DNA of 24,416 bases. It comes from Oscillospiraceae bacterium (lineage in GTDB: Bacteria > Bacillota > Clostridia > Oscillospirales > Ruminococcaceae). The translations under genes were made by a program, and so were the position numbers. The DNA lies in assembly GCA_016303195.1 (NCBI GenBank), contig JAEDMD010000006.1:1-24416 (forward strand), written 5' to 3'. Below, piece by piece: positions 9,719-13,261 of this stretch. How positions within the stretch are numbered: the first letter of the stretch is position 1; the number at the start of each line of letters is the position of its first letter. The notes under the pieces were generated by a model. It was not told the DNA's origin. It ran no database searches and worked only from the letters and a program-made list of their open reading frames with translations.

Positions 9719-10609
9719 ATGGGAATGATAAATATGATAAAAAGGCTTGATGCTGAAAAGGCAGGCCTTTATGTTATCAGCGAGGAAGAACTGAGCAAAC
9801 TCAAGAAAACACTTCTTGATATGCTCAAGGACATGATTAAAGTATTCGACGCAAACGGCATAAACTGGAGTCTTTCGGGCGGAAGCATCATCGGTGCTGT
9901 CCGTCATCATGGCTTTATCCCGTGGGATGACGATATCGACCTGTTCATGACAAGAAGAAATTTTGAGAAGTTCAGAAAAGTATTCAACAAACAGCTCGGC
10001 GACCGTTACAGACTGAGAATGCCCGGCGATAAGGGCTATATTCTCCATTTCCCCACCATCGAAAAGCGTGGCACGAGAATAAAGCAGATACAGTCAACTG
10101 GCGGCGCTCAGGGATTGTTCATAGATGTGTTCATCCTTGAAAACTGCCCCGATAACAAGATACTCAGAAAACTCCACGGTCTGCACTGCACTGCATACCT
10201 TGCCATCGACAGCTTTGTAAGGACTGAAGCCTGCAAGAAGAATCTTCTCAAATACGGCGCAAGCAGTCCCGAACTCATCAAGGCTGTAAAGCTCAGATGC
10301 AGACTCAGCAAGCTGTTTATGTTCAGAAAGCTGGAGAAATGGATGAAGCTCAGCGATAAGTGCTTTTCTTCCGTTAAGAACAACAAGTCCGAATATGTGG
10401 TATGTCCCAGCGGCGGCGCACATTATTTCGGCGAGATATTCAAGCGTGAGTATATGGAAAAGACCGTATCAGTGGATTTCGAGGATATCAAAGCGAATAT
10501 CCCCTGCAATTCCGATTATTACCTCACAAAGCGCTACGGCGCAGACTATATGACCATCCCGAAGGATGCGGCTAAGGAAAGACACGCTTACATCGAGTTC
10601 AAATTATAA
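9719..10609 (+). CDS. LicD-family phosphotransferase
   Basis: This 296-aa protein is of the LicD/fukutin nucleotidyltransferase-fold family. Bacterial LicD enzymes transfer phosphocholine from CDP-choline to glycans. The related human fukutin and FKRP transfer ribitol-5-phosphate from CDP-ribitol. The hallmark stretch is complete: GGS at 54-56, GAVRHHGF at 59-66, then IPWDDDID (67-74), whose acidic residues 70-72 and 74 would bind the metal. GAGG lies eight nt upstream of the ATG; other in-frame ATGs occur at codons 3 and 6. No choline kinase or CTP:phosphocholine cytidylyltransferase (LicA/LicC) is present. An IspD-like CDP-alditol-type enzyme is the next gene, so the donor may be a CDP-polyol rather than CDP-choline. 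The donor is inferred from context only. Confidence 0.85.
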   Translation: MGMINMIKRLDAEKAGLYVISEEELSKLKKTLLDMLKDMIKVFDANGINWSLSGGSIIGAVRHHGFIPWDDDIDLFMTRRNFEKFRKVFNKQLGDRYRLRMPGDKGYILHFPTIEKRGTRIKQIQSTGGAQGLFIDVFILENCPDNKILRKLHGLHCTAYLAIDSFVRTEACKKNLLKYGASSPELIKAVKLRCRLSKLFMFRKLEKWMKLSDKCFSSVKNNKSEYVVCPSGGAHYFGEIFKREYMEKTVSVDFEDIKANIPCNSDYYLTKRYGADYMTIPKDAAKERHAYIEFKL

Positions 10610-10744
10610 TACTGATCTCTGACCGAACCAATGAAAATCTAAACCGCTATCCGCTCGCTGTTCGTCATCAAATTGCGGACATTTTCCTATATCAGCGAGC
10701 GCCTGTCGGTTTATGTTTTCATCGAAACGGTCAGAGATCAGTAT
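10609..10744. repeat. 136-bp imperfect palindrome (long hairpin), possible MITE or structured RNA
   Basis: Two 52-nt arms (10609-10660 and 10693-10744) are reverse complements along their whole length. There is 17 bp perfect at the outside (ATACTGATCTCTGACCG), then a 5x5 loop, 7 bp, a wobble and a mismatch, 7 bp, a 5x5 loop and 9 bp (CGCTCGCTG/CAGCGAGCG) around a 32-nt apical loop. All internal loops are symmetric, so the arms align without gaps. The palindrome starts on the last base of the licD stop codon and ends 33 nt before the next start. No T-run follows directly. The structure is seen directly; its nature is not known. Confidence 0.85.
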
Positions 10745-10777
10745 AAAGACATTTTTTAAAAGGAGATATTTAAGATT

Positions 10778-11494
10778 ATGGCGAACATTGGTTTGGTTAT
10801 TGCAGGCGGTTCAGGAAACAGAATGCATCAGGACATCCCAAAGCAGTTCATCACTGTACACGAAAGACCTGTTATCGTATATACTCTGGAGGCTTTCCAG
10901 AATCACCCTGAGATAGGCGCTATCGCAGTAGTATGCATCGAAGGCTGGGAGCAGGTGTTATGGGCTTATGCAAAGCAGTTCAACATCACTAAGCTGAAAT
11001 ATGTAGTTCCCGGCGGAAAGAACGGTCAGGACTCCATCCGCAACGGTGTTTACGAACTTGAAAAGCACTACGACAAGGACGATATCGTTCTTATCCACGA
11101 TGCTATCCGTCCGATGGTATCTGCTGAGATCATTTCTGACTGCATAAACAAGACCAGAAAGTACGGAGACGCTATCACTGTTATCCCATGCGCTGAGGCT
11201 ATGATGCAGACTGAGGACGGCATGGTCTCAACAGGAAGCTATCCGAGAGACAACCTGAAGCGTACCCAGACTCCGCAGGGATTCAGGATCGGCAAGATCT
11301 GCGATCTCCACAGAAGGGCACTGGAAGCAGGCATCACAAATTCCGTTGCTTCATGCACACTCATGATCGAAATGGGCGAGCAGGTACACTTCTCAGCAGG
11401 TTCGGAAAAGAATATCAAACTCACAACAGTTGAAGATATCGACATTTTCAAGGCACTTCTCAAGGCTAAGAGATCAGACTGGTTAAAGGACTAA
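10778..11494 (+). CDS. IspD/TarI/ISPD-like CTP cytidylyltransferase (candidate CDP-pentitol synthase)
   Basis: This 238-aa cytosolic enzyme joins CMP to a phosphorylated polyol or sugar. Family motifs are present: GLVIAGGSGNRM with the KQF lysine (5-24), GGKNGQDSIRNG (79-90), HDAIRP (107-112) and RTQTPQGFR (162-170). The family includes IspD (methylerythritol-P), TarI (ribitol-5-P) and human ISPD/CRPPA (ribitol-5-P). The setting beside LicD, an extended SDR and AraD, with no isoprenoid gene nearby, argues for a CDP-polyol role. Pneumococcal capsule loci that make CDP-arabinitol are, from memory, reported to pair a cytidylyltransferase with an SDR in the same way. AAAAGGAG is rather far from the ATG (about 12 nt). 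The long palindrome lies just upstream and could affect expression. Confidence 0.85.
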   Translation: MANIGLVIAGGSGNRMHQDIPKQFITVHERPVIVYTLEAFQNHPEIGAIAVVCIEGWEQVLWAYAKQFNITKLKYVVPGGKNGQDSIRNGVYELEKHYDKDDIVLIHDAIRPMVSAEIISDCINKTRKYGDAITVIPCAEAMMQTEDGMVSTGSYPRDNLKRTQTPQGFRIGKICDLHRRALEAGITNSVASCTLMIEMGEQVHFSAGSEKNIKLTTVEDIDIFKALLKAKRSDWLKD

Positions 11495-12555: not shown

Positions 12556-12560
12556 AGAGG
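12554..12560 (+). promoter_or_regulatory. Ribosome binding site fixing the AraD start at ATG 12566
   Basis: AAAGAGG lies five nt before ATG 12566. The longer frame opening at TTG 12545 has no ribosome binding site, and its extra residues do not match the family N-terminus. Confidence 0.75.
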
Positions 12561-12565
12561 TATTT

Positions 12566-13261
12566 ATGTTAGAAAAGCTGAAAGAAGAAGTATGTGCAGC
12601 AAATCTGGAACTGGTTGCCAGAGGAGTTGTTATATATACATGGGGAAACGTCAGCGGCATCGACCGTGAAAAGGGTCTTGTCGTTATCAAGCCCTCAGGT
12701 GTTGATTATGACGGTATGAGCCCCGATGATATGGTAGTCGTTGACCTCGTAAGCGGCGAGACCGTTGAGGGAAAATGGAAGCCGTCATCAGATACAAAGA
12801 CACATCTCGAACTGTACCGTCAGTTCAGCGATATAGGCGGAATAACCCACACTCACTCCGTAAATGCCGTTGCCTATGCACAGGCAGGTGCGGATATCCC
12901 TGCTCTCGGCACTACCCATGCGGATTATTTCTACGGTGCTATCCCGTGTACCCGTGAGCTTTCCAAAGAGGAAGTTGAGGAGGACTATGAGCTGAATACG
13001 GGAAAGGTCATCGTTGAGACTGTCAGACAGCGCAATATACAGCCACTTGCCGTTCCGGGGATCGTTGTGAAGAATCACGGCCCGTTTTCATGGGGCAAGG
13101 ATGCGGCGGCTTCGGTTTACCATGCCGTTGTAATGGAAAAAGTCGCTGAGATGGATCTCAAAACACTGCTGATAAACCCCGATGCATCCATGCAGCAGTA
13201 TATTCTCGACAAGCATTATATGAGAAAGCACGGGCCGAATGCTTATTACGGCCAGAAGTAA
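12566..13261 (+). CDS. araD: L-ribulose-5-phosphate 4-epimerase (class II aldolase/AraD family)
   Basis: This 231-aa cytosolic zinc enzyme interconverts L-ribulose-5-P and D-xylulose-5-P. It lines up with E. coli AraD (recalled sequence) nearly residue for residue: MLE...L start, TWGNVS, KPSGVDY, zinc ligands His95, His97 and His171, catalytic Asp120 in THADYFYG, and the C-terminal DKHYxRKHG...AYYGQ with Tyr228. It is therefore a true AraD rather than a fuculose aldolase. No araA, araB or arabinose transporter is near, so arabinose catabolism is unlikely to be its role. In this operon it probably supplies L-ribulose-5-P (from xylulose-5-P) for the SDR and cytidylyltransferase encoded just upstream. 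That placement is an inference. Confidence 0.92.
   Translation: MLEKLKEEVCAANLELVARGVVIYTWGNVSGIDREKGLVVIKPSGVDYDGMSPDDMVVVDLVSGETVEGKWKPSSDTKTHLELYRQFSDIGGITHTHSVNAVAYAQAGADIPALGTTHADYFYGAIPCTRELSKEEVEEDYELNTGKVIVETVRQRNIQPLAVPGIVVKNHGPFSWGKDAAASVYHAVVMEKVAEMDLKTLLINPDASMQQYILDKHYMRKHGPNAYYGQK

Follow-up and report, generated by a model that had tools for sequence, protein, structure and literature searches.

A candidate CDP-pentitol synthesis-and-transfer module with a linked AraD epimerase gene in a surface polysaccharide locus of an Oscillospiraceae bacterium

We analysed the first 24,416 nucleotides of contig JAEDMD010000006.1 of an Oscillospiraceae bacterium (assembly GCA_016303195.1), a stretch referred to here as the window. 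It carries a surface polysaccharide locus that is closest to those of Ruminococcus flavefaciens and its relatives. In this locus, genes for a LicD-family phosphotransferase, an IspD-family cytidylyltransferase, an extended short-chain dehydrogenase/reductase (SDR) and AraD follow one another on one strand with gaps of 168, 5 and 10 bases. A sequence-only reading of this DNA had proposed them as a four-gene module, and the open reading frames (ORFs), Pfam matches, common strand and close spacing confirm that the four genes and their arrangement are real. Our analysis showed that linkage of araD to the cytidylyltransferase gene is restricted to one clade of IspD-like proteins among the rows examined. 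The reading as a whole, a module for synthesis and transfer of a cytidine diphosphate (CDP)-pentitol with AraD in a biosynthetic role, is to our judgement evenly poised between right and wrong.

Pfam and NCBIfam profile searches of the window ORFs placed the four genes on the plus strand at 9719-10609 (LicD, PF04991, 148.4 bits against a cut-off of 22.6), 10778-11494 (IspD-like, PF01128, 139 bits), 11500-12555 (SDR, Epimerase PF01370, 142.9 bits) and 12566-13261 (AraD, Aldolase_II, 167 bits). The start of araD was taken as the ATG at 12566, which agrees with the relatives, and not as the upstream TTG (ORF from 12545).

We surveyed samples of 125 genomes of the genus, 396 of the family and 391 of the class, and the rows in the comparisons below are related by descent. 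A scan of named genomes with the SDR gave 11 loci. In five of the nine closest of these (L001-L009; IspD 91–95% and SDR 86–92% identical to those of the window) araD lies directly 3′ of the pair, and AraD is encoded in all nine genomes, one of which (G006) has the locus-type AraD alone, on a separate contig. No AraD was found in the two more distant genomes, G010 and G011. In the genus, 10 of the 125 genomes have an SDR with 54% identity or more, and all 10 encode AraD, as against 18 of the 115 others (E <= 1e-40). AraD is present in 206 of the 396 family genomes (E <= 1e-60); therefore presence alone is weak evidence there, and it is linkage that counts. For 16 of 120 SDR clusters, the longest contig had the same size as that of one of 120 AraD clusters, against a mean of 0.5 and a maximum of 5 with shifted sizes, an independent hint of AraD/SDR co-occurrence.

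A search with the IspD-like protein (E <= 1e-62) found it in 21 of the 396 family genomes and 18 of the 391 class genomes; for a set of 21 genomes, AraD presence was judged at E <= 1e-30. The sequence-only reading had suggested a search for co-occurrence of the families as a check, and this search, taken together with the loci from the SDR scan, found araD in an IspD locus not only in the window but also in 12 genomes (G001, G002, G004, G005, G009, G025, G127, G511, G197, G231, G459 and G607). The araD gene is directly 3′ of the SDR gene in the window and in eight genomes (G127, G025 and G511 among them), and directly after the IspD gene in G197. In G231, G607 and G459 it shares the strand of the SDR gene at a distance of 7.5–16.5 kb from it. 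R. flavefaciens strains YL228 and ATCC 19208, both in culture, carry a linked araD; the close relatives in which it is unlinked come from metagenome assemblies. In a tree of 58 IspD rows, all 14 linked rows, including the window and two from G197, fell into one clade of 36. None of the 22 rows outside it was linked; seven of these come with AraD elsewhere in the genome and 15 with none. The linkage label changes seven times on this tree, at least five of these changes being forced by well-supported branches, and none of 500 shuffles gave so low a number. The tree leaves out G088, the second IspD of G132 (50%), one G197 row at 37%, and the genus loci with SDR of 32–36% and IspD of 36–39% or none; G197 and G264 give two IspD rows each, and L204, which is the same locus as L010, was counted once.

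In three of the linked genomes (G607, G511 and G025) IspD is 81–93% identical to that of the window (87% in G511, 93% in G025), while the SDR is only 58, 36 and 53% identical, respectively. This indicates that AraD goes with IspD, and the pattern fits an IspD that selects the ketose phosphate provided by AraD. The SDR partners of the IspD clade range from 36 to 92% identity to the window SDR, and on the SDR tree the IspD-clade label changes six times (at least three of them forced), so the SDR partners have been exchanged. Linkage of araD tracking the SDR was thus rejected by the two trees.

The AraD proteins themselves showed a similar division. In a tree of 78 AraD rows, 21 form one clade (support 100/99) that includes all linked AraDs: 13 in IspD loci, one beside araA (G495) and seven others, one of them in G006. 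None of the 57 rows outside belongs to an IspD locus; araA is the neighbour of 32, an FGGY kinase without araA that of 13, and the remaining 12 have neither next to them. The family part of this tree consists of the best 30 of 206 matching genomes and so favours the window's own clade, its bootstrap is not settled, and the neighbours of unlinked AraDs were judged from flanks of about 1.5 kb; 13 of the 46 neighbour labels for araA/araB rest on an FGGY kinase that is not proved to be AraB. No araA or FGGY-kinase match was found in any of the 12 linked loci as fetched. In addition to the locus AraD, three genomes (G001, G002 and G004) have a second one next to araA, which is 55% identical to the window AraD. 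Arabinose isomerase (AraA) was not detected in six of the 12 linked genomes (G009, G025, G127, G511, G197 and G607), and in G231 it was matched only below the cut-off.

The window AraD shares 56% identity over 229 residues (277 bits) with E. coli AraD (1jdi), and all 16 positions checked are the same in both. These include H95, H97 and H171, which we take to be the metal-binding histidines of the E. coli enzyme, and D76, D120 and Y229, presumably its catalytic aspartates and tyrosine (1jdi numbering). The protein scored above the cut-offs of two NCBIfam subfamilies (NF006047, 369.6 vs 257 bits; NF009003, 370.5 vs 331 bits) and below that of the equivalog TIGR00760 (351.7 vs 389.1 bits); it was therefore placed in the wider AraD subfamily and not in that equivalog. 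As judged from sequence, it is an L-ribulose-5-phosphate 4-epimerase. It resembles the AraD of L-arabinose catabolism in its residues and probably in its reaction, but differs in belonging to a distinct clade and in its setting, a polysaccharide locus with no araA or FGGY kinase nearby.

The IspD-like protein scored below the cut-offs for the methylerythritol phosphate (MEP) pathway IspD (TIGR00453, 162.3 vs 181.3 bits) and for the TarI-type D-ribitol-5-phosphate cytidylyltransferase (NF001183, 156.2 vs 166 bits). Its best match in the PDB is 4jis, a ribitol-5-phosphate cytidylyltransferase (116 bits). Each of the 13 related genomes examined encodes, outside the locus, one IspD that exceeds the NCBIfam cut-off, and a locus copy that falls below it; the locus copy is therefore an extra, diverged paralogue. 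The sequence-only reading had named use of methylerythritol phosphate alone as a result that would count against it; by these scores and the separate IspD in 13 of 13 genomes, the protein is not the housekeeping MEP enzyme. Positions 105, 109, 142, 145, 158 and 169 tell the IspD clades apart, and some of them lie in the HD[A/G]xRP and RDN...QTPQGF stretches, which presumably line the substrate site in this family.

The SDR gene adjoins the IspD gene in the window, and in 48 of 56 related loci an SDR match was found no further than 1.5 kb from IspD, a count to which loci fetched via the SDR itself contribute. The closest structural match of the predicted SDR structure is the CDP-ketose reductase HS5.17 (8v4h), with an alignment that spans residues 5 to 350. 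The model has helices at 7–19 and 23–26 ahead of the first strand at 30, an extended N-terminal helix. The two proteins are 29% identical over 312 aligned residues. The catalytic YxxxK (Y181, K185) and the pyrophosphate-binding arginines R178 and R247 are present in the window SDR and invariant across 46 homologues of 60–92% identity.

In 39 of the 56 related loci there is a LicD match no more than 3 kb away from IspD. The window LicD matched FKRP weakly, over 46 residues (E 4.1e-6). Between licD and the IspD gene lies a long imperfect hairpin (10609-10744, plus strand), a 136-nt palindrome with a 17-bp outer stem and an RNA fold of −65.3 kcal/mol (z −9.28). It had no BLAST match (E <= 1e-3) across 227 loci, and no Rfam match at gathering score was found within the window, hairpin included. 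It is possibly a terminator/attenuator or a mobile repeat, and probably stands outside the pathway.

Two other arrangements of these genes were seen. In one G197 locus (L165, C195) the order is LicD-IspD-AraD-LicD with no SDR match between, and a second set, LicD-IspD-SDR, follows about 5 kb on; this locus holds two CDP-alcohol sets. In five further loci (L175-L179, in G737, G695, G860, G541 and G894) LicD adjoins an IspD of 77–78% identity, and no extended-SDR match was found within the 19.5 kb examined per locus (genes were read in three of the five). In L175, L176 and L179 an MBOAT-like membrane protein is on the other side of IspD.

In the surrounding polysaccharide locus, the order before licD is PGM, ManC, ManA, a WecG/TagA/CpsF family glycosyltransferase (7727-8479, plus strand, PF03808, 216.7 bits) and a GT4 glycosyltransferase (8544-9677, plus strand, PF00534, 105.2 bits). 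After araD come genes for a polysialyltransferase-like glycosyltransferase (13281-14396), a Wzy-like polymerase and a Wzx-like flippase, together at 13281-17084 on the plus strand (PF07388 47.3, PF04932 48.9 and PF01943 82.4 bits). They are followed at 17081-24067 by a 4,6-dehydratase-like SDR, a DegT aminotransferase, a CBS-nucleotidyltransferase, a PglD-like acetyltransferase, NeuB, epimerase 2 and a cytidylyltransferase, a legionaminate-type set, the name legionaminate being our assignment from its gene content. On the minus strand, divergent from the polysaccharide locus, 74-3319 encodes a GH127 beta-L-arabinofuranosidase, which is probably a cellulosomal arabinose-releasing enzyme because it has a C-terminal dockerin; its closeness to araD may be due to chance. 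No araA or araB was found among the other window genes assigned, in agreement with the earlier statement that araD here comes with no arabinose catabolic genes.

Pairs of an IspD-family cytidylyltransferase and an extended SDR are already described. In Campylobacter jejuni HS:5, HS5.18 turns cytidine triphosphate (CTP) and fructose-6-phosphate into CDP-6-D-fructose, and HS5.17 (PDB 8v4g/8v4h) reduces CDP-fructose to CDP-6-D-glucitol (PMC10918830). Like the window pair, these are a PF01128 cytidylyltransferase and a PF01370 extended SDR whose Rossmann fold is preceded by a helix, but they use fructose-6-phosphate. Mnp1/Mnp2 of S. pneumoniae 35A, known to us by description, are of the same pair type and likewise cytidylylate the ketose phosphate first and then reduce it, to CDP-D-mannitol, again differing in the substrate, fructose-6-phosphate (PMC10918830). 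A 2024 paper lists about 400 IspD/extended-SDR pairs with CDP-glucitol or CDP-mannitol as predicted products, and the terms arabinitol and class II aldolase are absent from the main text of PMC10918830. Mammalian ISPD also makes CDP-ribulose (PMC4924997, citing Riemersma 2015), so that a pentulose phosphate is not far-fetched as a substrate in this family.

The window also resembles systems that make five-carbon products. TarI/TarJ and Bcs1/Acs1, which make CDP-D-ribitol, and human ISPD-FKTN/FKRP reportedly couple an IspD-family CDP-pentitol to use by the LicD family, as proposed here; they are said to differ in having another reductase and a D-ribulose-5-phosphate origin. Abp1/Abp2 (AbpA/AbpB) of S. 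pneumoniae 17F and serogroup 24 reportedly convert D-xylulose-5-phosphate to CDP-D-arabinitol, a five-carbon product as in our proposal but of the D-series. AbpA is presumably an IspD-family member, and we know of no araD in abp loci. It is described as a 240-aa transferase of CDP-arabinitol synthesis from a capsule locus (PMC10118250). In searches of the open-licence literature, no paper listed had a title or abstract on CDP-L-arabinitol, on CDP-L-ribulose or on an AraD within a CDP-polyol locus, and the text of PMC3759607 available to us names the epimerase in a pathway table only. The sequence-only reading had not known the combination as a described pathway; this seems to hold, within the searched open-licence literature, for the AraD link alone, and not for the pair of IspD and extended SDR.

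In our proposal, we infer the substrates, the direction in which AraD works, the stereochemistry at C2 and the acceptor for LicD as follows. AraD would act in the biosynthetic direction and convert D-xylulose-5-phosphate to L-ribulose-5-phosphate. The IspD-like enzyme would join this with CTP to give CDP-L-ribulose, and the extended SDR would reduce C2 with NAD(P)H to CDP-L-arabinitol or CDP-L-ribitol, the latter being the mirror image of ordinary CDP-D-ribitol. LicD would then move the pentitol phosphate to a glycan, and the polymer receiving it would be made by the polysialyltransferase-like, Wzy-like and Wzx-like proteins. The idea of a CDP-polyol module supplied by AraD is supported by the recurrent linkage in one IspD clade and by the SDR model being nearest a CDP-ketose reductase; the order of steps first proposed is not supported. 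A fuller proposition, which we hold tentatively and at somewhat less than an even chance, is that a specialised clade of AraD that diverged from the enzymes of arabinose catabolism feeds L-ribulose-5-phosphate to surface polysaccharide, that one IspD clade makes CDP-L-ribulose, that exchangeable SDRs set C2, and that L-arabinitol or L-ribitol phosphate stands on gut and rumen polymers.

However, several observations weigh against a CDP-pentitol module that depends on AraD. No araD adjoins the pair in four of the nine closest loci (L003, L006, L007 and L008). The sequence-only reading had considered that homologous loci without araD would make its presence accidental; these four lack it next to the pair, yet all nine genomes encode AraD. 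Of the 36 rows of the IspD clade, 22, four close relatives included, are without linked araD; 20 of them have AraD elsewhere in the genome, and for two none was found. At least five linked genomes (G001, G002, G004, G005 and G459) have araA, as do four unlinked relatives (G003, G006, G007 and G008). The only AraD found in G005, and likewise in G459, is the locus copy, which may serve both purposes. In addition, the cytosine-contacting D212, F226 and Y295 of HS5.17 correspond to Q226, N240 and M311 in the window SDR, and T227 to S241, a comparison that uses the structure of one member only and a contact that is partly made by the backbone. The chief weakness is that the substrate is one we infer, and that most members of the IspD clade, including close relatives, get by with an AraD that is unlinked and often of the catabolic type.

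The reading next in line, possible but unlikely, is a route like that of Abp1/Abp2, in which cytidylylation of D-xylulose-5-phosphate and then reduction yield CDP-D-arabinitol or CDP-xylitol and AraD only tops up D-xylulose-5-phosphate from L-ribulose-5-phosphate derived from L-arabinose. D-xylulose-5-phosphate is a general metabolite, and such a route works without AraD, which fits the four closest loci without adjoining araD and the 22 unlinked rows of the clade. The two genomes with araA and a single AraD (G005 and G459) and the GH127 gene in the window also agree with it. However, as far as the assemblies are complete, the lack of an AraA match in half of the 12 linked genomes means that L-arabinose would not reach L-ribulose-5-phosphate that way, and three genomes have an extra araA-linked AraD besides the locus copy. 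This route also leaves unexplained why araD linkage was seen in one IspD clade only.

Polysaccharide loci often swap genes, and AraD could be a bystander carried along while IspD and SDR start from fructose-6-phosphate, as the characterised pairs do, and produce CDP-mannitol or CDP-glucitol. PMC10918830 predicts the same product for pairs of this type from over 200 organisms. We consider this improbable: AraD recurs by IspD in varied arrangements, with different SDRs and in an AraD clade of its own.

A third alternative, very improbable, is the order of TarJ and TarI, in which the SDR first reduces a pentulose phosphate and the IspD-like enzyme then activates the pentitol phosphate. The sequence-only reading had placed the SDR step ahead of the cytidylyltransferase, and the match to 4jis agrees with this, but the score falls short of the NF001183 cut-off and the SDR model best matches a CDP-ketose reductase, whose partner HS5.18 gave less than 1% product with glucitol-6-phosphate (PMC10918830). 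Since the characterised pairs cytidylylate the ketose phosphate first, the proposed order is probably reversed, and by analogy with them cytidylylation most likely precedes reduction in the window pair. Barely plausible is an SDR that has nothing to do with the IspD-like enzyme and forms a nucleotide pentose, as a uridine diphosphate (UDP)-glucuronate decarboxylase or similar enzyme would: human UDP-glucuronate decarboxylase/UDP-xylose synthase gives the top sequence score, is ranked first by Foldseek E-value and has the E, R, YxxxK and R positions in common with the SDR in the alignment, but a plain UDP-xylose synthase, although favoured by sequence score alone, was rejected by the structural match to HS5.17 and a score far below the cut-off of NF008872 (64.3 vs 294 bits).

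IspD/extended-SDR pairs are widespread. If our proposal of a CDP-pentitol module with a biosynthetic AraD is true, one IspD clade among them makes L-series CDP-pentitols and not CDP-glucitol or CDP-mannitol, and a linked araD would be a simple genomic marker for that clade. A catabolic epimerase would then have been recruited to supply an activated sugar, and an unfamiliar pentitol phosphate would be expected on rumen and gut bacteria.

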